Position numbers and translations under genes: made by a program. Below the pieces are notes generated by a model. That model had not been told where the DNA came from and ran no database searches. It saw only the letters and a program-made list of their open reading frames with translations. Positions 326 to 9,997 of a stretch of 12,334 bases of DNA are shown in pieces. Each line of letters opens with the position of its first letter. The first letter of the stretch is position 1. The DNA comes from Oscillospiraceae bacterium (GTDB taxonomy: Bacteria; Bacillota; Clostridia; Oscillospirales; Acutalibacteraceae): the NCBI GenBank assembly GCA_009786735.1, contig WQRM01000032.1, positions 1 through 12,334 of the forward strand, written 5' to 3'.

Positions 326-354
326 TTGACATCACAACGAGGATATGGTATACT
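326..354 (+). promoter_or_regulatory. Sigma-A promoter driving the first radical SAM gene
   Basis: TTGACA (326-331) and TATACT (349-354) have a 17-base spacer, a near-perfect sigma-A promoter. The transcript would start near 361, about 39 bases before the GTG start at 400. It diverges from the lipoprotein promoter at 237-265. The 206-399 interval holds these two promoters and the two ribosome binding sites; I see no gene in it. Confidence 0.85.
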
Positions 355-399: not shown

Positions 400-1341
400 G
401 TGAAGCATTTGTTTTGGCGCGCACAAATTAGTATCTTGCGTGCATTTCCGCCTTTAAGTGGCGTTGTTTCAACCGTGAGCATGGGCGCGGCGAATTCGCG
501 CCGTGTTTGGCTAAAAACGTTTTTTTTGATGTTATTTCGAGTTCCGATGGCGCTGCTGTCGCACTTGCGAAACAAGTGCACGAATCGCGTTGTGCTTTCC
601 CGCATTAGCGTGCCCGTCACCACCCGTTGCACGCTGCATTGTGACAAATGCGCCGCTCATGTTCCTGACTTAGCACAACCGCATGATGTTCCCGCCGAAC
701 AATTGATTGCCGACGCAAAGGCGCTTTTCTTCTGCGTTGACCATGTTTACGCAACCATTTTTTCTGGCGGCGAAGCCTTTCTCCACCCGCAGCTTGATGA
801 AATCATCATGACATATGCTTCGTTTAACCGCTCCAGCAGCACCAGCGTGCAAACTAATGGCACTTTGTTGCCAAACGCGAAGGTTATCGCCGCCCTCAAA
901 GCCACAAACGCCACTGTAAAAATCAGCAATTATCCATCACAATTGCAGCCGAACGTTGAGCAGCTCAAAAGCCAACTAAGAGAACACGGGATTCGCTTCA
1001 CTCACGCAAGCGGCACCTTTTGGTGCGATGTAGGGCAACTCGGTGTTGCTCAATCCGGCTGCGCAAAGCGGCGCTTCAGCACCTGCATTCAGCAATTATG
1101 TCTGCCCTATTACAAAGGAAATTTGCATCTGTGCGGGGAATCATTCATCCTGCTGGAGGAAAACCAAGCAAACATCCCACCACAGGATTATATCAATCTG
1201 CACACAAGCACACCACAAACATTTGCCAAGCAATTGCGGCAACTTTTGCGCAAACGTCACATCAAGGCCTGCGATTATTGCTTGGGTTACACTTGTGATG
1301 CGCTGAAAATCCCCATTGCCGAACAACGAGAGCGCTCATGA
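400..1341 (+). CDS. Radical SAM protein with SPASM-like C-terminal cysteines
   Basis: A 313-residue radical SAM enzyme. The [4Fe-4S] cluster motif C-x3-C-x2-C is at Cys77, Cys81 and Cys84, and the SAM-binding G-G-E motif is at 123-125, followed by F-L-H-P. The C-terminal third is unusually cysteine-rich (Cys209, 221, 229, 234, 245, then 291, 294, 299), suggesting an auxiliary Fe-S cluster of the SPASM/twitch type. An N-terminal stretch of about 60 basic and hydrophobic residues precedes the barrel and may associate with the membrane. The GTG at 400 is chosen as start because AAAAGGAG ends 6 bases before it; an upstream in-frame ATG at 316 lies within and ahead of the promoter and cannot be used. 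SPASM proteins often modify peptides, but no precursor peptide is visible here. Substrate unknown. Confidence 0.85.
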   Translation: MKHLFWRAQISILRAFPPLSGVVSTVSMGAANSRRVWLKTFFLMLFRVPMALLSHLRNKCTNRVVLSRISVPVTTRCTLHCDKCAAHVPDLAQPHDVPAEQLIADAKALFFCVDHVYATIFSGGEAFLHPQLDEIIMTYASFNRSSSTSVQTNGTLLPNAKVIAALKATNATVKISNYPSQLQPNVEQLKSQLREHGIRFTHASGTFWCDVGQLGVAQSGCAKRRFSTCIQQLCLPYYKGNLHLCGESFILLEENQANIPPQDYINLHTSTPQTFAKQLRQLLRKRHIKACDYCLGYTCDALKIPIAEQRERS

Positions 1342-1359
1342 GCTTTATTGCAGGCGCGC

Positions 1360-1388
1360 TTGCATTTTTCTGCTGAATGTGTTATAAT
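1360..1388 (+). promoter_or_regulatory. Sigma-A promoter ahead of the Lgt-like gene
   Basis: TTGCAT (1360-1365) and a perfect TATAAT (1383-1388) are separated by 17 bases, immediately after the first radical SAM gene. It would give a leader of about 36 bases before the ATG at 1431. The genes from 1431 to 6673 can therefore be transcribed separately from the first gene as well as by read-through. Confidence 0.75.
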
Positions 1389-1430
1389 AAAACTGTTCCA
1401 GAATGAGTATCCAAAGGCAGGATTTCTACC

Positions 1431-2558
1431 ATGACAGATTTTTTCAACAATTTATTTCAGCAAACAACTCGGCTCTATATGATCGGAGGCGTGTTGTTGA
1501 ATTTATTGCCGGCGTTTTGGCTGCATTATTCCCGCCGGATGAACGCAAAGCTTGACCAACCCGCGCCACGCGGCTGGCTCACTATGCTCCACCAAGCCAT
1601 TGAGCCAAAGGCTATTTCCGGCAAGCAACGCAAGCTTGCGCACGGAAAAAAAATGCAACGAGCTCCGCGCTACGGAACATTCACTTCACGCAATCGAAGA
1701 AAACGCATCGCTGCAGTGCTACGAACTCTTGATGTTTGGCTGCGTGAAAAGCTTTCTCTTTTGCCTAGCGCAACGCTTGAACGGCGAACAAATTGGTTTA
1801 TTTTGCTGTTTGTTACTTGGCTTGTGCCGGCTTTTACTCGGTGGGTATTAACCGGTAGATTCACAGAGCTTTATCACGGCCTGCGCAACTCACCGGAATT
1901 AACCGCACAAGAAAGCACACAGTTATTGCTGTTATTTTCCTCGCTGCTGCTCATCGCCGTTGTTGCACTTACGCCATTGTTTTTTTTGAAACGAAACCGC
2001 GAATTTCATTGGGATGTTTTTGCCATCTTTATGCTTCTTCATACTTTTTTTCATAAAATGCGCTGCTACTGGTGGAACTGCTGTTTCGGCTTTGTGTGGG
2101 AAGGCGGAAGATATTCCAGCTTGATTGGCGCAGAAGTTTTCCCATTACAGCTTCTTGAAGCTGGTGGCAGTTTGTTGCTTACTGTGGTCTGCATTTTATT
2201 TGTGATATATTCAAAGCACTACAAGCCCGGCCGCGGCATGTCTCTTGCGTTGATTTTTTACGCCATACCGCGATTCTTTTGGGACTTCCTGCGTTACAAC
2301 GAAACCGTACGCACCGCAGAGCTAGACGGCCTGTTTGGGCTAACAATGGGGCAAACGGTGAGCATTCTTGCTGTGGTTTTGGCGGTCATTTGGTGGTTTG
2401 CGCTGCCGCTCGAGAGAAAAATAATGTCGCACTTTGACAGCGGGCTGCGCCGAGTGGCTATCTGGCTTTATTTCCGTCCAAGGCTTCACCCGGTTTTGTC
2501 AAAACTGTTTTCGTGGCACGACGATATTGCTGCTTTAAAGGAGGCACGCCGCACATGA
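1431..2558 (+). CDS. Divergent Lgt-family (prolipoprotein diacylglyceryl transferase-like) membrane protein
   Basis: A 375-residue polytopic membrane protein. By eye there are hydrophobic segments near residues 12-32, 121-140, 163-186, 196-208, 246-262, 272-286 and 306-324. The C-terminal half carries Lgt-like signatures: K-M-R-C-Y-W-W-N-C-C-F-G (209-220), resembling the R-x-G-C-x4-C-C-x-G motif of some Lgt-family proteins; F-P-L-Q-L-L-E (237-243), like H-P-x-Q-L-x-E; R-F-F-W-D-F-L-R (281-288), like R-F-x-x-E-x-x-R; and L-T-M-G-Q (304-308). Canonical Lgt transfers diacylglycerol from phosphatidylglycerol to the lipobox cysteine. This protein differs at several conserved positions and has a long basic insert at about 36-118, so a different acceptor is likely. 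A purine-rich AAAGGCAGGA precedes the start. The stop overlaps the next start (ATGA), indicating translational coupling. Confidence 0.7.
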   Translation: MTDFFNNLFQQTTRLYMIGGVLLNLLPAFWLHYSRRMNAKLDQPAPRGWLTMLHQAIEPKAISGKQRKLAHGKKMQRAPRYGTFTSRNRRKRIAAVLRTLDVWLREKLSLLPSATLERRTNWFILLFVTWLVPAFTRWVLTGRFTELYHGLRNSPELTAQESTQLLLLFSSLLLIAVVALTPLFFLKRNREFHWDVFAIFMLLHTFFHKMRCYWWNCCFGFVWEGGRYSSLIGAEVFPLQLLEAGGSLLLTVVCILFVIYSKHYKPGRGMSLALIFYAIPRFFWDFLRYNETVRTAELDGLFGLTMGQTVSILAVVLAVIWWFALPLERKIMSHFDSGLRRVAIWLYFRPRLHPVLSKLFSWHDDIAALKEARRT

Positions 2559-4474
2559 AAAACATTTACTTTGTTCAGGCAGGCAACCTCTATGGCAGCA
2601 ATGCGTATTTGCCTTATGCTGCTGGTTGTGTTGCCGCCAATGCCTTTTGCAACCCAAAAATCCGCGCACACTATCACTTGGGTCACTTCACATTTTTGCG
2701 CACACCAATTGAGGAAGTTGTTAATTCATACGACAACCCCTTCTTGGTGGCGTTTTCGTGCTATCTTTGGAACTTCGAGTATCATAAGACATTGGCGCAA
2801 GCCATTAAGACGCGCTGGCCACAGTGCTATATTCTGTTTGGCGGGCACAATGTGCTTAACGAAAGCTCACAACAACTCAACGATTATCCTTACATCGATT
2901 TTTTGTTGCATCGCGCAGGCGAAATCCCATTTGAACAGCTTTTACTCACCCTGCACACAAGTGGAAATCTCAACGAAGTGCCTTCCCTTTCGTTTCGCAA
3001 CGCGCAGGGGCAACCACAACGCACACAAGATGCGCCTTGCACCCGCTGTGACTTCCCCTCACCGTATCTCAACGGTTTTTTTGACGATTTGTTTGCGCAA
3101 TACCCGCACATTTTGTTTTCCATGACATTTGAAACCAACCGCGGCTGCCCATATGCATGCACCTATTGCGACTGGGGCACCGCGCGCCAAAAAGTGCACA
3201 TGATGCCCATGGAGCGCGTGAAGGCAGAAATTGACTGGGCGGCACAACACAACATCGAATACCTATTTTGCGCAGACGGCAACTTTGGCATGTTTGAACG
3301 CGACAGCGCAATTGTTGATTATTTGGCCGAAAAAAAGCAACAAACGGGTTACCCAACAAAATTTGGCGCTTGTTTTGCCAAAAACAGCAACGAAATGGTG
3401 TTTGCCCTCAACCGCAAGCTTTGCGCCCATAAGCTCAACAACGGCGCCACCCTATCTTTTCAATCTCTTTCTCCCAGCGCGCTTGAAAACATTCACCGCA
3501 AAAACCTTGGGCTTGAAGCTTATGCCGACCTGCTCGCGCAATATAATCAATCCGGTGTGCCCGTATATTCCGAACTCATCCTCGGTTTGCCCGGCGAAAC
3601 ACTGCAGAGCTTCACCCATGGCATTGGTCAATTGCTTGCTGCGGGGTTGCGCGGAATGATTCAAGTGTACCCCTGCGAAGTGCTGCTGAACGCTGCCATG
3701 GCAACCCCCGACTATCAACAAGAGCATGGCATTAAGGCTGTGCGCGTGAATAAAGTACAGCGCTATTGCAAACCCGCCACGGACGACATTCCCGAGTATT
3801 CCTCCGTCGTCGTGCAAACATCCACCATGCCGATTGAAGATTGGGTGCAAGCGATGGTGTTTTCCACATTGGTGGAAGGGCTGCACTGCTTTGGGCTGCT
3901 GCCGCTAATCGCGGTTTATCTACACCACCAAAACAACCTCCCTTACGAGCGGTTTTACCTTGATCTCATGGACTTTGCGCGCGAAAACCCCAACACGTTT
4001 TTGGGCGAACAACTCGCCTTTTTCCAAGCGCGTTATGCGGCATTTGCGCAAGGGGCTGGCGAAAACTTCGTGTTGCACGACCCACGCTTTGGCGAAATCA
4101 CATTCCCGCTTGATGCCGCAGTATTTCTTCGCGGTGCCTATGAAATCGACCGCTTGTTTGCCGAACTGCCCACATTTTTGCAGCGTTACGCGTTGCCAAA
4201 CGACCTGCTCACCCAGCTGCTCAGTTACCAAAAGGCGCTGGTGTGTTTGCCAAAACCGCAAGCTCAGCAAAGTGTTAGCTTCGATTACAACTTTCCGGCT
4301 TATTTTTCTGCAGTGTTCGCACGGCAAAGCTCTGAATTAGAAAAAAGACACACCACACTCATCCCCGAGCAAAACCCAACGCTTGCTTGGCCGGATTTCG
4401 CCCGTGAGTATGTGTGGTACGGCAGACTCAAAGGCGCTTTAACGCGCAAAGGAGATAAAGTAATTTATGACTGA
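2555..4474 (+). CDS. B12-binding-type radical SAM protein, large (639 aa)
   Basis: A 639-residue protein. The N-terminal 140 residues look like a cobalamin-binding Rossmann domain (Y-L-P-Y-A-A-G near 25-31, L-F-G-G-H near 95, then R-A-G-E before the linker). The radical SAM barrel follows, with the cluster motif G-C-P-Y-A-C-T-Y-C at Cys198, Cys202 and Cys205. A long C-terminal region of about 250 residues ends with F-A-R-E-Y-V-W-Y-G-R, a tail I associate with a subgroup of B12 radical SAM proteins. Members of this class methylate unactivated carbons or perform rearrangements. The start at 2555 has AAAGGAGG 10 bases upstream; an in-frame ATG 14 codons earlier lacks such a site. The gene overlaps its upstream neighbour by 4 bases and its downstream neighbour by 8. 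Substrate unknown. Confidence 0.85.
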   Translation: MKNIYFVQAGNLYGSNAYLPYAAGCVAANAFCNPKIRAHYHLGHFTFLRTPIEEVVNSYDNPFLVAFSCYLWNFEYHKTLAQAIKTRWPQCYILFGGHNVLNESSQQLNDYPYIDFLLHRAGEIPFEQLLLTLHTSGNLNEVPSLSFRNAQGQPQRTQDAPCTRCDFPSPYLNGFFDDLFAQYPHILFSMTFETNRGCPYACTYCDWGTARQKVHMMPMERVKAEIDWAAQHNIEYLFCADGNFGMFERDSAIVDYLAEKKQQTGYPTKFGACFAKNSNEMVFALNRKLCAHKLNNGATLSFQSLSPSALENIHRKNLGLEAYADLLAQYNQSGVPVYSELILGLPGETLQSFTHGIGQLLAAGLRGMIQVYPCEVLLNAAMATPDYQQEHGIKAVRVNKVQRYCKPATDDIPEYSSVVVQTSTMPIEDWVQAMVFSTLVEGLHCFGLLPLIAVYLHHQNNLPYERFYLDLMDFARENPNTFLGEQLAFFQARYAAFAQGAGENFVLHDPRFGEITFPLDAAVFLRGAYEIDRLFAELPTFLQRYALPNDLLTQLLSYQKALVCLPKPQAQQSVSFDYNFPAYFSAVFARQSSELEKRHTTLIPEQNPTLAWPDFAREYVWYGRLKGALTRKGDKVIYD

Positions 4475-5195
4475 GGCATTTGGCAAAGCCGTTGCACTGG
4501 TTTTTGCACACAACGAGGTGCTTTCTCTTCGCGAAACCGTGCAGAGCATTGCGCAGTCCTGCCAAGCGTCCGATATCGCCCGCATTGTGATTTTTTTGGC
4601 TTTGCATGCCACCGAACAATGCTGTGCAGAGGCACAACGCTTGGCTGGCAACACACAATTGCCCATTGCAGTGATTGTTGCACAAGAACAAGGCAGAGGC
4701 TTTGCTGTTGAAGTGCCGCAGTTGCTGTCACAGCAAAACGATGCCACACATGTTGCAATTTGGGCAGCGGATTTAGACACCCCACCCCATCTGCTGGCAC
4801 ACATGCTTGCTGCAGCAAAACAACAGCCCGCCGCAGTTATCAAGCTTTCACGCTTTGTTGCTGGCGGGCAATTGTCAAGCCGACGCGTGCCCCGTGTTTT
4901 GTTTCGTTATGCCGTGAATTTGCTGTATCGTAGCCAACAAACCGACCCACATCATGGCGAATGCTTGTTCCCGCTGGCAATGTTTCTGCGCTTTCGCCTC
5001 ACTGAAAAACACATGGCCTTTTTCTTGGAATATAGTTTGTGTTTCGAGCGCATGGGCGTGCCATTTATTGAACTGCCCAAAACCCAGCAGCTGCGCCGCG
5101 AGGGCAAGTCAAATATGTCCTTGCGCAAAAAAATGCGTTATTTGGTTCCCTTAGTTCGCGTGCGCATGTTGCCGCGCCGAAAAATCATAAAATAA
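4467..5195 (+). CDS. GT2-family glycosyltransferase, polyprenol-phosphate type
   Basis: A soluble 242-residue protein, about the length of dolichol-phosphate mannosyltransferase-like GT2 enzymes, which move a sugar from a nucleotide donor to polyprenyl phosphate. The N-terminus has a strand then H-N-E (15-17), the usual GT-A start. A-D-L-D-T (101-105) sits where the metal-binding DxD motif is expected. L-S-R-F-V-A-G-G (127-134), R-x4-R-Y-A-V-N (about 143-151) and a following Asp (160) resemble the family's SRY-x-x-GG / R-x-x-N / D pattern. There is no membrane helix. The sequence is divergent, so sugar and acceptor cannot be named. It overlaps the preceding gene by 8 bases, with AAAGGAG 12 bases ahead of the ATG, and lies in the same transcript as the radical SAM genes on both sides. 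Confidence 0.65.
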   Translation: MTEAFGKAVALVFAHNEVLSLRETVQSIAQSCQASDIARIVIFLALHATEQCCAEAQRLAGNTQLPIAVIVAQEQGRGFAVEVPQLLSQQNDATHVAIWAADLDTPPHLLAHMLAAAKQQPAAVIKLSRFVAGGQLSSRRVPRVLFRYAVNLLYRSQQTDPHHGECLFPLAMFLRFRLTEKHMAFFLEYSLCFERMGVPFIELPKTQQLRREGKSNMSLRKKMRYLVPLVRVRMLPRRKIIK

Positions 5196-5224
5196 GCGCT
5201 ATCACGAAACGAGGAGGATGAAGC

Positions 5225-6673
5225 ATGAATGTTCTTTTGATTAACCCGGATATGGGGCTTTGTTTATTGCCCAAAACCGTACCCATGGGCTTGCTTTCCA
5301 TCGCATCGTACCTGCAAACACACCATCACAGCGTGCAAATCTACGACCGCAATGTTAATCGCACGTCCTTAAAAAAAATCGTCGAACAATTCTCACCACA
5401 AGTGGTGGGGGTTTCGGTTACAACATCTTACCATATCGATGACGCCATGGCTATCTCGCGTTATTTTCGTGAACATAATATTCCGGTTGTGTGGGGTGGC
5501 CACATGGCAACGATTATCCCGGAACTCATTTTACAACAACGCGCAGCAGACTACGTTGTGTTGCATGAGGGCGAAATCACATTTCACGAGCTTTTGCAGG
5601 CGCTAGAAAACAATACGTCCGTTGCGCAGATCGATGGTTTAACTTATCTCGACAACAACGGAAATTTTGTTCAAACACCCGACCGTGCATTTGCTTGCCT
5701 CGCTGAATTCCCCATGTTAGATTGGTCTCTGGTGCGCCCGGAAAAATATTTAGATACCTTCATGGGGCATCGAAATGTATTTCGACTCTATACATCCAAG
5801 GGCTGCCCGGGACGATGCACCTTTTGTGTGAACGAAAGCTTTAACCGCCGCAGTTACCGCGCGCGCCCATTTTTACATACCAGCAGCGATATCGATCATT
5901 TGATTGAACATCATGGTGTTGACACCATCGTTTTTTACGACGAGTTATTTGGTATGGATAAACAAGCGCTTCGTGAACTTTGTGATTTTTTACGTTCTCG
6001 GAACATTATTTGGGGTGCGCAAACCAAAATCGGGGTGTTAAGCCCCGATGACATGCAGCATATGTACGACTGTGGTTGTCGCTGGCTGACTTATGGCATC
6101 GAAACAGGTTCAGCTGAAATGCAAAAACGCATCCGCAAGGGGATTTCGCTTGATAAAATTGACAAAGACCTGCAAGTTTGTGCCAACATCGGCATCGCTG
6201 CAGCGGGCAATTTTATTATCGGCTTTCCGGATGAAACCAAGGATCAACTGCGCGAAACAGTTGCGCTGATTTTGCGCAGCAATTTTTATCGTAGCATGGC
6301 AAACATATTCTCTCCCATTCCGGGAACCAAACTTTACGGAGAACTTGTTGAAACCGGACGAATTCTTGCTTGCGAGACATTGGAAGAATGGAGCAAAACT
6401 GCGATTATTTCATTTTACGGCACCACCAGTAATTTCTCTGCAGTGCCCACGCGCCACTTGCTTGTTTTACAAAATTACATTCACTGGCGCAGCTTGTTTT
6501 CGCAAAACAAAAAATTGGCACAAGGCATGTTAAAATCTACGCTTGGCTCGTTGACGCAACGTAGGCTTTGGGGCATGATACGCCTTGGTATTTCTTTCAT
6601 AAAGCTATTTTTCTCCGTTGCTTGGTACCGCTTTGCCTATCCCGACATTCGCCGAGAGTATGGACTGAAATAG
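5225..6673 (+). CDS. B12-binding-type radical SAM protein (482 aa), paralogue A
   Basis: A 482-residue protein with an N-terminal cobalamin-binding-like domain (about 1-140) and a radical SAM barrel. It has P-M-G-L-L-S-I-A-S-Y-L (20-30), Y-D-R-N-V (40-44) where the cobalamin-ligand motif D-x-H-x-x-G would lie, and V-V-W-G-G-H near 90. The cluster motif is G-C-P-G-R-C-T-F-C at Cys194, Cys198 and Cys201. N-F-I-I-G-F-P-D-E-T and the C-terminal W-Y-R-F-A-Y-P-x-I-R-R-E-Y-G-L are shared with the leftward gene at 6737-8212. The His of the cobalamin motif is replaced by Asn, so any cobalamin would be bound without that ligand, as is known for several B12 radical SAM enzymes. GAGGAGG lies 8 bases upstream of the ATG; a 29-base gap separates it from the glycosyltransferase. 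Last gene of the rightward operon. Reaction unknown. Confidence 0.87.
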   Translation: MNVLLINPDMGLCLLPKTVPMGLLSIASYLQTHHHSVQIYDRNVNRTSLKKIVEQFSPQVVGVSVTTSYHIDDAMAISRYFREHNIPVVWGGHMATIIPELILQQRAADYVVLHEGEITFHELLQALENNTSVAQIDGLTYLDNNGNFVQTPDRAFACLAEFPMLDWSLVRPEKYLDTFMGHRNVFRLYTSKGCPGRCTFCVNESFNRRSYRARPFLHTSSDIDHLIEHHGVDTIVFYDELFGMDKQALRELCDFLRSRNIIWGAQTKIGVLSPDDMQHMYDCGCRWLTYGIETGSAEMQKRIRKGISLDKIDKDLQVCANIGIAAAGNFIIGFPDETKDQLRETVALILRSNFYRSMANIFSPIPGTKLYGELVETGRILACETLEEWSKTAIISFYGTTSNFSAVPTRHLLVLQNYIHWRSLFSQNKKLAQGMLKSTLGSLTQRRLWGMIRLGISFIKLFFSVAWYRFAYPDIRREYGLK

Positions 6674-6736
6674 GCAAAAAATGCGCGTGCTTTTTGTTTT
6701 CCAAAAACAATCTGTGCCGCGCCGCAAAACCTTCAA

Positions 6737-8212
6737 CTAGCGTAAGCCGTACTCACGGCGAATTTTTGGGTAAGCAAAACGATACCACGCAAAACCAAAG
6801 AAAGTTCTCGCCGCCGTAAACACTTGACCAAACAAACTAAGCAAACCCTTGCTAAACATCATGCGCAACATGGTTTTAATCGACTTTGTGGCAATGGAAT
6901 AGCGGCTCATGCCTGCGGAATCACCCTTCGCAAAAAAGCTTTTCCACATAAAATGGCTTTGCACAACCAGCAAGTCCCGCGTTGGCACTTGCGAATAGTT
7001 GTTGCTCACGCCTTGGTATACCATGCGCTTGCTTGACAATTGCCGCAAGCTTTGCAATGGCTGCAGTTGTCCGCGCTGTATCAATTCCCGCTCCAATGCC
7101 GAATCGCAAGAGGGGAAAAAAATCACAAATGAGCACCAACTGCTTTCCAAGCGCTGTGCCAATTGCACGCTTTTTTTTATCTGTTCTTTCGTTTCATCCG
7201 GAAAACCAATAATAAAGTTGCAAAACACCGAGATGCCGATTTCTTTGCACATCTCAAATTGTTCCACAACCTTGGTTAAGTCAATGCGTTTGTTAATGCG
7301 CTTTTGCATGTCAGGACAACCGCTTTCCACGCCAAAAAAAATCCATCGGCAACCAGCATTGTGCATATGCTGCAAGTCCTCACGATTAAAATGACCCAGC
7401 CGCGTTTGGCAGCCCCAAGAAAACACCTTCAAGTTCAGCGCTCGAATTCGGTCACACAGGTCATAAAGCTCTGCCTTGTTCGCACCAAACAATTCGTCAG
7501 CAAAGCGCACACCATCCATCCCATGCTCACGCGCCAAATATGCAATTTCCTGCACAACATGCTCATTGGGGCGTTTTCGATATTGGCACTTGTGATAGCT
7601 TTCGTTCATGCAAAACGTGCATCGCGCAGGACATCCCTTAGAGCAATAAAGATGCCCCAGTTTGTTGCAACAAAAAAAAGGCGATAAATAACGCTGCGGG
7701 CGAATCAGCGACCAATCTGTCGGTTGAAACTTCGCAAGATTGGCAAACTCCCGCGGTTCAGTTCGGTGAACTTGTCCGCTTGCATCGCGATAAGCTAATC
7801 CGTTTATTTCTGCAAGACTCCAACCACGCTCGAGTGCTTGCAACAACTCGTGAAACGTCACCTCACCCTCGTTAATCACCACATAATCCGCTGCGTGTTC
7901 TGCAATCACCAGTTCAGGTGCGATTGTTGCCACATATCCGCCCCACACCACGGGGATACCCATGTTTTTTAGCGCCGCCGAAACCTTCAAACCATCTTTC
8001 ACACAATTTGTGGTGAACACTGAAACCCCTGAAATTTGCGGTTTAAACTCCCGCACCACACGACGCAGCGAAACTGTTTCTACGTTTCGGTCATATATTC
8101 GGATTTCGTGCCCAAATTGCTTCAAATATGATGCAATCGCGAGCAACCCCATTGGCCAATCTTGATACATGCCGTAAAACCCGCCGTTTGGGCAAACCAA
8201 AAGAATCTTCAT
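6737..8212 (-). CDS. B12-binding-type radical SAM protein (491 aa), paralogue B
   Basis: A 491-residue protein clearly homologous along its whole length to the convergent gene at 5225-6673. It shares P-M-G-L-L-A-I-A-S-Y-L (20-30), I-Y-D-R-N-V (39-44), I-P-V-V-W-G-G (86-92), the cluster motif with Cys194, Cys198 and Cys201 at identical positions, F-I-I-G-F-P-D-E-T, and the ending W-Y-R-F-A-Y-P-x-I-R-R-E-Y-G-L. Like its paralogue it has Asn in place of the expected cobalamin-ligand His. The start at 8212 is chosen because AAAAAAGGAGGGG lies just upstream; the in-frame upstream extension to 8305 runs through the promoter. It has its own strong promoter with a very short leader. The two paralogues probably act on the same or consecutive intermediates, but each can be expressed separately. 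Confidence 0.87.
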   Translation of the reverse strand: MKILLVCPNGGFYGMYQDWPMGLLAIASYLKQFGHEIRIYDRNVETVSLRRVVREFKPQISGVSVFTTNCVKDGLKVSAALKNMGIPVVWGGYVATIAPELVIAEHAADYVVINEGEVTFHELLQALERGWSLAEINGLAYRDASGQVHRTEPREFANLAKFQPTDWSLIRPQRYLSPFFCCNKLGHLYCSKGCPARCTFCMNESYHKCQYRKRPNEHVVQEIAYLAREHGMDGVRFADELFGANKAELYDLCDRIRALNLKVFSWGCQTRLGHFNREDLQHMHNAGCRWIFFGVESGCPDMQKRINKRIDLTKVVEQFEMCKEIGISVFCNFIIGFPDETKEQIKKSVQLAQRLESSWCSFVIFFPSCDSALERELIQRGQLQPLQSLRQLSSKRMVYQGVSNNYSQVPTRDLLVVQSHFMWKSFFAKGDSAGMSRYSIATKSIKTMLRMMFSKGLLSLFGQVFTAARTFFGFAWYRFAYPKIRREYGLR

Positions 8213-8231: not shown

Positions 8232-8260
8232 ATTATACTTGTGTGCGTTGCGTTTGTCAA
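8232..8260 (-). promoter_or_regulatory. Consensus sigma-A promoter for radical SAM paralogue B
   Basis: On the minus strand a perfect TTGACA (8260-8255) and perfect TATAAT (8237-8232) are separated by 17 bases. Transcription should start near 8225, leaving a leader of only about 13 bases, most of it the ribosome binding site AGGAGGGG. The promoter diverges from that of ccdA, and the two -35 boxes lie in a 10-base inverted repeat. Confidence 0.88.
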
Positions 8261-8328: not shown

Positions 8329-8976
8329 ATGATTGCTTTGCTGTTTGCCGAGGGCGTGCTGACGTTTGTATCGCCCTGCCTGCTGCCCTTGCTGCCGCTT
8401 TACGTCACCTACTTCGCCGCCGGGCAGCACAACCGCCGCCGCACGCTGCTCAACGCCTTGGGCTTTGTGCTGGGCTTTGCGCTGGTGTTCACCGCGCTGG
8501 GTGCGTTTGCGGGCACATTGGGCGCGCTGGTGCTCCGCCACCGCTTTTGGGTGAACATCGTCACCGGGCTTGTCGTGGTGGTGCTGGGGCTGAGCTTTCT
8601 TGGGCTGTTTCGGCTGCCATTTTTGCACAAGCTGCAGCCGCGCCGCATGAACACGCAGAACATGCGCTTTGGCAAGTCCATCGTGTTTGGGCTAACCTTC
8701 GCCGCCGCGCTCACCCCCTGCGCAGGACCCATGCTGGGCATCGCGCTGATGCAAGCGGCGCAAGCGGGCGGCACACTGCAAGGCTCGCTGCTGCTGTTTG
8801 TGTACTCCCTTGGCGTGGGGCTGCCGCTGGTGCTGTGTGCGGTGCTCATGGACCACCTCAAGGGCGTGCTTGCGTTTTTGCGCCGCCACCAAACCAAGAT
8901 TCACAAAATCTCCGGCGTGCTGTTGATACTGCTGGGCATTGCCATGGCCTTTGGCCTGTTAGAAAGGATCACATGA
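8329..8976 (+). CDS. ccdA: CcdA-type cytochrome c biogenesis / thiol-disulfide transmembrane protein
   Basis: A 215-residue, highly hydrophobic protein of the CcdA/DsbD-beta family, which carries reducing equivalents from cytoplasmic thioredoxin across the membrane to extracytoplasmic thioredoxin-fold partners. It has the two diagnostic cysteines, one in F-V-S-P-C-L-L-P-L-L-P (Cys17) and one in L-T-P-C-A-G-P-M-L-G (Cys131), each near the start of a three-helix half. About six membrane segments can be seen, and the length matches the family. The ATG at 8329 gives the usual short N-terminus; an in-frame TTG at 8293 is the -35 box of the promoter. No ribosome binding site is present, consistent with a leaderless mRNA. 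It overlaps the first of two downstream lipid-anchored thioredoxin-fold genes, its probable redox partners. Confidence 0.9.
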   Translation: MIALLFAEGVLTFVSPCLLPLLPLYVTYFAAGQHNRRRTLLNALGFVLGFALVFTALGAFAGTLGALVLRHRFWVNIVTGLVVVVLGLSFLGLFRLPFLHKLQPRRMNTQNMRFGKSIVFGLTFAAALTPCAGPMLGIALMQAAQAGGTLQGSLLLFVYSLGVGLPLVLCAVLMDHLKGVLAFLRRHQTKIHKISGVLLILLGIAMAFGLLERIT

Positions 8977-9509
8977 TGAACAAAACCAAAAAGATTGCGC
9001 TGGCAGTTGCCGCGTTTTCGCTGATTTTCCTCACCGGCTGCGCCCAGCTGCGTGCGATGATCCCCCCGCGCGACCTCAATCCCCTGCCCAATTTTGCAGT
9101 CACCACCTTGGACGAACAAGTCGTCACGCGGGATGACCTGCTGGGCACACCCACGGTGCTGTTCTTTTGGAACAGCTGGTGTCCGCACTGCAACGACATG
9201 ATGCCCAATGTGCAGGCGATCTACGAAGAATTTGGCGACCAAGTGCGCATCATGGCGATCAATGCCCGCGAAGAGCAACGCAACGCCGACAGCCCTGAAG
9301 AGGCTTTGCACAACGCCTTAACTTATCTGCAACACAACGGCTTCACCCTGCCGATATATTTCGACTGGGACTTGCAAGCCTACCACGCCGCGCAAGCGCC
9401 CGCCGTGCCCACCACCGTGTTCATTGATGCCACGGGCTATGCCGCGCGCTGGCGCTTGGGCGCACGCACGCAAAACCAACTGCGCCGCGACATTCAGGAG
9501 ATACTATGA
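8976..9509 (+). CDS. Lipid-anchored TlpA/ResA-like thiol-disulfide protein (WCPHC)
   Basis: A 177-residue lipoprotein with a basic N-terminus, a hydrophobic helix and the lipobox L-T-G-C (lipidated Cys22). The rest is a thioredoxin fold of the TlpA/ResA type: V-L-F-F-W-N-S-W-C-P-H-C with redox cysteines 69 and 72, a central E-E-F-G-D-Q-V-R-I-M-A-I-N strand, and the cis-proline in A-V-P-T-T-V-F-I-D (Pro145). It acts outside the membrane, probably reduced by the adjacent CcdA. The Pro-His dipeptide between the cysteines is the DsbA type, unlike the Pro-Ser of the next gene. Two adjacent ATGs are possible (8973 and 8976); 8976 has better spacing to AGAAAGGA. The start overlaps the ccdA stop and the stop overlaps the next start, so translation is probably coupled. 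Confidence 0.88.
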   Translation: MNKTKKIALAVAAFSLIFLTGCAQLRAMIPPRDLNPLPNFAVTTLDEQVVTRDDLLGTPTVLFFWNSWCPHCNDMMPNVQAIYEEFGDQVRIMAINAREEQRNADSPEEALHNALTYLQHNGFTLPIYFDWDLQAYHAAQAPAVPTTVFIDATGYAARWRLGARTQNQLRRDIQEIL

Positions 9510-9997
9510 AGAAAATTTTGCTGCCGGTCATCCTCGTTGGTCTAATCCTCCTCACCGCCTGCAGCACAGCACTGCCCATGGGCGAAAGCGAGCTCTCCCC
9601 CGCCCCGCAATTTGTGGTGGAGGATTTGCAGGGCAACCACGTGGACGTTGCTGCCGGGCAAGCGCTTGTGCTCAACTTTTGGGCGAGCTGGTGCCCCAGC
9701 TGCCGCCGCATGATGCCCGCCTGGCAGACGATCTACGACGAACTGGGCGGCGACGTGCGCATGATGAGCATCAACGTGGGCGAAAGCCGCGACCGCGCCA
9801 TGCAGTTCACCAGCGGCGCAGGGCACACCTTCCCCGTCTACCTCGATGCGCCACTCGCCTCAGCCGCCGATGCCTTTGCGCTCACGCACTTCCCCACCAC
9901 AATCTTCATCAACGCCCACGGCGATGTGCTGCACCGCCACATCGGCACGCTCAACGCCACCATGCTGCGCCTGCACACCGCTGATTTACTTGACTAA
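9506..9997 (+). CDS. Lipid-anchored TlpA-like thioredoxin-fold protein (WCPSC)
   Basis: A 163-residue lipoprotein with lipobox L-T-A-C (lipidated Cys19) and a short linker. The TlpA-type thioredoxin domain has L-N-F-W-A-S-W-C-P-S-C (redox Cys63 and Cys66), a D-V-R-M-M-S-I-N strand and the cis-proline in H-F-P-T-T-I-F-I-N (Pro130). It is a paralogue of the preceding gene, with which it shares the M-M-P-x-x-Q-x-I-Y segment after the active site. It should work at the outer face of the membrane and receive electrons from CcdA. AGGAG lies 5 bases ahead of the ATG, which overlaps the upstream stop by 4 bases. Targets such as cytochrome c or envelope disulfides are not indicated by the neighbours. 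Confidence 0.88.
   Translation: MKKILLPVILVGLILLTACSTALPMGESELSPAPQFVVEDLQGNHVDVAAGQALVLNFWASWCPSCRRMMPAWQTIYDELGGDVRMMSINVGESRDRAMQFTSGAGHTFPVYLDAPLASAADAFALTHFPTTIFINAHGDVLHRHIGTLNATMLRLHTADLLD

Follow-up and report, generated by a model that had tools for sequence, protein, structure and literature searches.

What do the genes gathered on contig WQRM01000032.1 (C32) of an Oscillospiraceae bacterium produce together? The contig, analysed over its whole length of 12,334 bp and called the window below, belongs to a 1.59-Mb metagenome-assembled genome (MAG; G000, 70.6% complete). It carries genes for four radical S-adenosylmethionine (SAM) enzymes, an Lgt-like membrane protein, and a family 2 glycosyltransferase (GT2), a set that an earlier, sequence-only reading had linked to an unusual lipid or lipid-linked glycan of the cell envelope. 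All six genes were present at the places given there, the start of the KedN5-type radical SAM gene having been moved; the other radical SAM genes are called rSAM1, rSAM4, and rSAM5. That reading knew of no described pathway with this gene combination, and none was found in open-licence PMC papers. We assign a rough probability of 0.5 to the interpretation that a core of four genes, encoding the Lgt-like protein, the KedN5-type methylase, the GT2 enzyme, and a second cobalamin (B12)-dependent radical SAM enzyme, represents a conserved envelope-glycan pathway that would yield a surface glycan or glycolipid bearing a C-methylated sugar. Each component has known relatives; according to our best reading, the novelty lies in the combination and in the employment of TokK/CysS-type methylases in an envelope pathway resembling those based on polyprenyl-phosphate sugars.

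Recurrence of the core genes

The genus sample comprised 14 genomes, including the MAG Oscillospiraceae bacterium Cf509_bin60 (G771, locus L034), and the family, order, and phylum samples comprised 150, 394, and 249 genomes, respectively. Genomes are designated G###, contigs C##, and loci L###; KedN5a and KedN5b denote methylases a and b, which, in the genus, separated into two groups in a 23-sequence tree. KedN5-type genes (E ≤ 1e-60) were found in eight genus genomes (G000, G048, G766, G768, G769, G770, G771, and G773), seven of which, all except G048, also encoded the Lgt-like protein (E ≤ 1e-80), which was found in none of the six others. The Lgt-like profile (A7) took its rows from all genus carriers except G770 and G048. 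In five of the eight methylase genomes, the genes for Lgt-like protein, KedN5a, and GT2 stood in a row, mostly with KedN5b next. Specifically, the order was Lgt-KedN5a-GT2-KedN5b in G766 and on G773:C21, Lgt-KedN5a-GT2 on G773:C57, rSAM1-rSAM1-Lgt-KedN5a-GT2-KedN5b-ABC_cobalt permease in G768, and Lgt-Lgt-KedN5a-GT2-KedN5b-ABC_cobalt permease in G769. The window itself reads rSAM1-Lgt-KedN5a-GT2-rSAM4, with rSAM4 occupying the slot in which most relatives carry KedN5b. On G770:C465, the order is rSAM1-KedN5a-GT2-KedN5b; this genome has Lgt-like genes on two further contigs, in one case next to an rSAM4-like gene, and that match contains a stop codon. The order in G048 is rSAM4-like-KedN5a-GT2-KedN5b. 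The neighbourhood search proposed in the sequence-only reading thus found the genes recurring as an operon in the genus rather than as scattered homologues. The permease genes (PF09819), located directly downstream of KedN5b (L150, 11372-11923; L151, 6532-7077), possibly serve a need for cobalamin.

Using the single window protein as a query (E ≤ 1e-30), KedN5-type proteins were identified in 15 of the 150 family genomes. The GT2 subfamily (E ≤ 1e-40) was present in 14 of these and in none of the 135 others (Fisher value 8e-19, shared descent being ignored here and below), and the rSAM4/5 subfamily (E ≤ 1e-80) in nine and none, respectively (6e-11). The GT2 and rSAM4/5 profiles were assembled from genes found near KedN5 genes; if only KedN5 genomes that gave no profile row are counted, the figures are 5/6 versus 0/135 for GT2 (1.4e-8) and 3/9 versus 0/135 for rSAM4/5 (1.7e-4). 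Four KedN5-negative family genomes gave weak GT2 matches (1e-16 to 7e-12). Among the matches listed, at least 13 of 19 strong GT2 matches were located less than 200 bp from a KedN5 match, and at least 36 of 57 KedN5 matches had another one within 300 bp. The co-occurrence of GT2, methylase, and rSAM4/5 in the family likewise argues against scattered homologues. At 1e-15, the GT2 profile matched 12 of the 394 order genomes, strongly only G000 and G098, both of which belong to the family, and the KedN5-type profile (E ≤ 1e-60) matched one of the 249 phylum genomes, namely the window's own.

The enzymes of the core

The KedN5-type protein scored 239.4 bits against NF033712, for which the cut-off is 700, and is therefore a relative of this named subfamily rather than a member. 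Its similarity to TokK (7kdx, E = 2.1e-93; 3e-152 with the family profile) and CysS (9n1b, E = 1.5e-52) is nearly full-length. The CxxxCxxC cluster motif, which reads CPYACTYC in the window, is kept in 50 of 50 copies, and a tryptophan aligning with TokK W76 and CysS W75 is found in 49 of them, with glycine in the remaining one. According to the parts of PMC12846815 and PMC13331322 used here, this tryptophan sits below the cobalt. Homology and cofactor residues thus give good support to a methylase of the TokK/CysS/KedN5 type, which would transfer methyl groups to unactivated carbons. Unlike TokK, CysS, and KedN5, the window family occurs in diverged tandem arrays, several of them in loci that also hold glycan genes. 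In other genera of the family, the genes lie in tandem, with six in a row on G102:C83 (L068/L069) and further arrays on G133:C18 (L076) and G073:C137 (L081). Copies within one genome are 32-46% identical (50-copy set), whereas four members of the G133 array each have a counterpart in the G073 array, with the order kept, at 47-65% identity. Given this member-by-member orthology despite divergence within genomes, these arrays are old and their members probably have separate roles. One residue reaches at least 90% in 33/183 columns of the cobalamin part, 40/215 of the radical SAM part, and 11/233 of the C-terminal part; such C-terminal variability would be expected if the copies differed in substrate or position. 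Two KedN5 arrays also contain genes resembling flavin adenine dinucleotide (FAD)-dependent amine oxidases (L073, 5906-7441; L085, 1262-2794), with a B12 radical SAM gene of a third type (~610 aa) close by.

To our knowledge, all TokK/CysS-type methylases make antibiotics. One rival to an envelope glycan is a small-molecule natural product or a ribosomally synthesized and post-translationally modified peptide (RiPP), as made by antibiotic pathways with these enzymes. It would agree with the substrates of the closest characterised relatives (TokK, CysS, and KedN5 act on antibiotics), with the best, albeit sub-threshold, NCBIfam match of rSAM4, which is the RiPP enzyme ApyD, and with the amine-oxidase-like gene of the L073 arrays and its relative in L085. 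We regard such a product as quite improbable, since 14 of 15 carriers possess the GT2 enzyme and the window's unit has little room for a precursor: its only gap above 70 bases (1342-1430), which was also the only one examined, holds four open reading frames (ORFs) of 22-50 aa, each extending into a neighbouring gene. Moreover, no nonribosomal peptide or polyketide synthase was noticed on the gene maps, for which no model search was made.

The GT2 enzyme remained below the Pfam cut-off (20.8 versus 23.3 bits), and the best PDB match of its profile (A2) was the dolichyl-phosphate mannose synthase (DPMS) PfDPMS (5mlz, E = 6.6e-16). Counterparts of the DPMS residues Glu12 and Asp91 are present in all ten GT2 sequences, the latter as Asp102, and those of Arg117 and Arg202 in nine. 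As stated in the part of PMC5526996 used here, Asp91 binds the metal. Gln93 is not kept, and the enzyme forms a subfamily of its own that is linked to the methylases. Hydropathy indicated no transmembrane-like segments. From this relationship, we infer that the enzyme may load a sugar onto polyprenyl phosphate.

The Lgt-like protein matched the Pfam family LGT with 41.4 bits (cut-off, 24.9), covering only the C-terminal half of the model, and scored 27.2 bits against the NCBIfam equivalog NF000778, far from its cut-off of 334. A fold comparison of the predicted model showed that the Lgt fold is retained, which is the sole link to Lgt beyond the Pfam family; the profile had no match among PDB sequences, and Foldseek alone gave no match under E 0.001 for either this model or the GT-C-type model described below. 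With Escherichia coli Lgt (5azb), the protein shares, besides fold and family, an invariant Arg281 in the motif RFxxEFxR, taken by hand as the counterpart of Arg239, but it has a long extra loop. An ordinary Lgt is encoded separately in the same genome on C30, and residue counterparts were assigned by hand alignment to that protein. The histidine of the HGGL motif (His103) was dropped as a test for Lgt, as the genome's own ordinary Lgt has tyrosine at this position. A third Lgt-fold protein of the genome is encoded on G000:C1 (7903-8601, L036) and has the motif GRIGCFSAGCC. Of 7,999 candidates scored in a protein database search with the Lgt-like sequence, only the query and P0002 were returned, and a contig search gave one locus; the genus-level search showed that both understate the family. 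Counts of 39/150 in the family (E ≤ 0.001) and 9/394 in the order (1e-15) were discarded, because many of the weak matches are ordinary or distantly related Lgt-fold proteins; the best ones outside the window's own genome were 8e-21 and 6e-20.

Further non-canonical Lgt-fold genes are located directly upstream of genes for giant secreted repeat proteins (L087, 9284-10114; L116, 8001-8777; L120, 3733-4563; L070, 8874-10810). These giant proteins comprise 1,192 to 3,043 aa, some being cut by contig ends, and are mutually related; the two tested had no Pfam match. An alternative function, the attachment of the methylated glycan or of a lipid to a secreted surface protein by the Lgt-like enzyme, is suggested by GCC-type (C-x4-CC-x-G) Lgt-like genes that adjoin a giant gene on G076:C36, G076:C37, G138:C63, and G128:C104, the order in G128 being GT2-GT2-KedN5-Lgt-Lgt-giant. 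We find it very doubtful for the window, as two giant queries matched nothing in the fetched genus loci and the giant-adjoining Lgt-like proteins are only 20-26% identical to that of the window.

A possible envelope-glycan pathway

Several KedN5 arrays of the family have nucleotide-sugar genes and membrane proteins of the glycosyltransferase C (GT-C) fold nearby. The latter belong to a family of about 415 aa (L068, L069, L075, L076, L077, L080, L081, L082, and L134), for which no Pfam match was obtained in three members tested. The GT-C fold was found in a predicted model of the array-neighbour protein, and it is in this predicted fold that the family, which is not represented in the window, resembles GT-C transferases such as STT3/PglB, ALG9/12, PMT, and ArnT. 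Furthermore, G771 and G770 each combine, in one locus with an Lgt-like gene, a short-chain dehydrogenase/reductase (SDR) and an acetolactate-synthase-like thiamine pyrophosphate (TPP) enzyme, which we infer to be YerE; in G771 only, RfbF and RfbH are encoded there, too. This recalls the yersiniose-type pathway for C-4 branched sugars but differs from it in that the locus also encodes an Lgt-fold protein and radical SAM enzymes of the B12 or another kind; on the window contig, no branched-sugar module was noticed. Of the two products named in the sequence-only reading, the lipid-linked glycan is thus the one favoured, namely by the relation of GT2 to DPMS and, outside the window, by the GT-C neighbours and nucleotide-sugar genes; a function of the Lgt-like protein as Lgt was not supported.

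A membrane-lipid pathway would use the same genes differently: the B12 enzymes would methylate or cross-link acyl or isoprenoid chains, the Lgt-fold protein would move diacylglyceryl from phosphatidylglycerol, and GT2 would add a head-group sugar, yielding an unusual glycolipid. The Lgt fold and the presence of GT2 are compatible with it, as are the scores of rSAM4 and rSAM5 against HpnJ and TIGR04072, which are far below cut-off. It appears unlikely, since the KedN5-type enzyme is much closer to TokK and CysS than to hopanoid or ladderane enzymes and several other genera pair the module with GT-C and nucleotide-sugar genes, with no Lgt-like gene seen there except in G128.

For the envelope-glycan pathway, the following steps can be envisaged. 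The KedN5-type enzyme and the neighbouring B12 enzyme would methylate unactivated carbons of a sugar or its carbon branch by means of methylcobalamin and a 5'-deoxyadenosyl radical, the substrate presumably being a branched or deoxy sugar. GT2, judged by its homology, would then move the sugar from the nucleotide to polyprenyl phosphate at the inner membrane face. A polytopic membrane protein would pass the sugar on at the outer face; in other genera, this would be a predicted GT-C-fold transferase. In the genus of the window, the Lgt-fold protein would transfer it to, or from, a phospholipid, which is the weakest step of the scheme; alternatively, this protein might produce the lipid acceptor or serve to anchor a surface protein. 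A more elaborate version is a B12-dependent methylation assembly line for the cell surface, in which diverged tandem methylases are each tuned to one carbon of a polyprenyl-phosphate-borne branched sugar and, in the window's genus, an Lgt-fold enzyme whose conserved cysteines replace the catalytic residues of Lgt transfers it to phospholipid, giving an undescribed glycolipid class; we consider this speculative and rather unlikely.

Several observations weigh against an envelope glycan. Arg143, Asn146, and Glu151 of E. coli Lgt correspond to Lys209, Cys212, and Cys217 in the Lgt-like protein, and the R143A/E/K and E151A/Q mutants of the E. coli enzyme are inactive according to the part of PMC4728403 used here; the replacement of such essential residues speaks against a function as Lgt. 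In all ten GT2 sequences, Asp89 of DPMS, the first Asp of the DAD motif, is replaced by A/S/C/G/T/P and the acceptor-phosphate residue Ser135 by R/N/H, so that the GT2 reaction is not certain. The characterised KedN5-type relatives use antibiotic precursors, not surface sugars. G048, a genome 98% complete, has methylases and GT2 but no Lgt-like gene, and G771 displays Lgt-KedN5b with no GT2 in the fetched stretch. The Lgt-like profile was built from the same genus, and of the two carriers outside it (G770 and G048) it recovered one; among the six genus genomes without a methylase, two reach a completeness of just 66% and 72%, and the neglect of shared descent in the Fisher values counts here as well. 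Finally, the window yielded no recognisable sugar-nucleotide or GT-C gene, the rest of the genome not having been searched for the branched-sugar module, and the nucleotide-sugar neighbours elsewhere were selected by visual inspection, with no background count.

TokK/CysS-type chemistry looks tied to the cell envelope here, with arrays of up to six diverged copies. If this is true, methylation of sp3 carbons would join the bacterial ways of varying surface sugars, the arrays would offer many new, naturally selective methylases, and a function would be found for that branch of the Lgt fold in which the active site of Lgt has been lost.

Extent of the unit and neighbouring genes

The four genes between 1431 and 6673 had been described as overlapping or at most 29 bases apart, which holds true. 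The likely KedN5 start is the ATG at 2555 behind AAAGGAGG, not 2549, and the overlap with the Lgt-like gene is consequently 4 bases; the KedN5 and GT2 genes overlap by 8 bases, and rSAM4 begins 29 bases past GT2. The features are compiled in Table 1. Promoters and terminators were called by consensus scans only, with 11 promoter-like sites versus 8.6 expected and 27 terminator-like sites versus 14.8; tRNA and Rfam scans of the window gave no match.

Table 1. Genes and regulatory signals in the window
Feature	Positions	Strand	Match or basis
rSAM1, radical SAM protein with extra C-terminal cysteines	400..1341	+	Pfam PF04055, 32.8 bits
Terminator-like hairpin and T-run between rSAM1 and Lgt-like gene	1349..1364	+	consensus scan, weak
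Lgt-fold polytopic membrane protein, non-canonical, C-x4-CC-x-G motif	1431..2558	+	
KedN5/TokK/CysS-type cobalamin-dependent radical SAM methylase, group a	2555..4474	+	
GT2 enzyme, DPMS relative, own subfamily	4467..5195	+	
rSAM4, B12-binding radical SAM, HpnJ/BchE/ApyD-like class	5225..6673	+	PF02310, 73.2 bits; PF04055, 59 bits
rSAM5, B12-binding radical SAM, rSAM4 class, convergent	6737..8212	-	PF04055, 79.9 bits; PF02310, 65.4 bits
Sigma-70-like promoter TTGACA-17-TATAAT, 5' of rSAM5	8232..8260	-	consensus scan, 12/12
Sigma-70-like promoter with TG before -10, 5' of rSAM1	326..354	+	consensus scan, 11/12

Because of the hairpin behind rSAM1 and the separate promoter and convergent strand of rSAM5, these two genes may form transcription units of their own. 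Grouping all four radical SAM genes into one cluster, as the sequence-only reading did, is therefore too broad, the more so as rSAM1 was found in only four of the eight methylase-bearing genus genomes and in one genome without methylase, and as rSAM4 takes the place of the KedN5b of most relatives. rSAM1 lies outside the conserved core of the family, in which it was found in four of 150 genomes at 1e-10, the window's own and three weak ones. It starts with GTG behind AAGGAGA, and its alignment to the rSAM4/5 profile spans only 45 columns around the cluster motif. The earlier label "SPASM-like" is possible but unproved: Pfam matched Radical_SAM only and not SPASM, whereas C229, C234, C245, C291, and C294 in the C-terminal part are invariant in an alignment of three sequences. 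Relatives with 49-54% identity are encoded in G768 and on G770:C465, and rSAM1-type genes occur in tandem in G768 (two copies) and on G770:C492 (four). The latter copies belong to L171 (4343-8260) together with one radical SAM/SPASM gene; the same locus encodes the YerE-like TPP enzyme, an SDR, GtrB, an Lgt-like protein, and, by reading, a signal-peptidase-like protein. For rSAM4, the ApyD match reached 163 bits (cut-off, 750); HpnJ gave 146 bits with rSAM4 and 142 with rSAM5, and the lipid-associated TIGR04072 gave 120 and 122, respectively.

At 8332-9997, the window encodes an extracytoplasmic thiol-redox set: a DsbD/CcdA-type membrane protein and, after it, two thioredoxin-like proteins, both with lipoprotein-like starts by reading. 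These are followed by a 122-aa ORF without a Pfam match and then by CysS, which was likewise assigned by reading.

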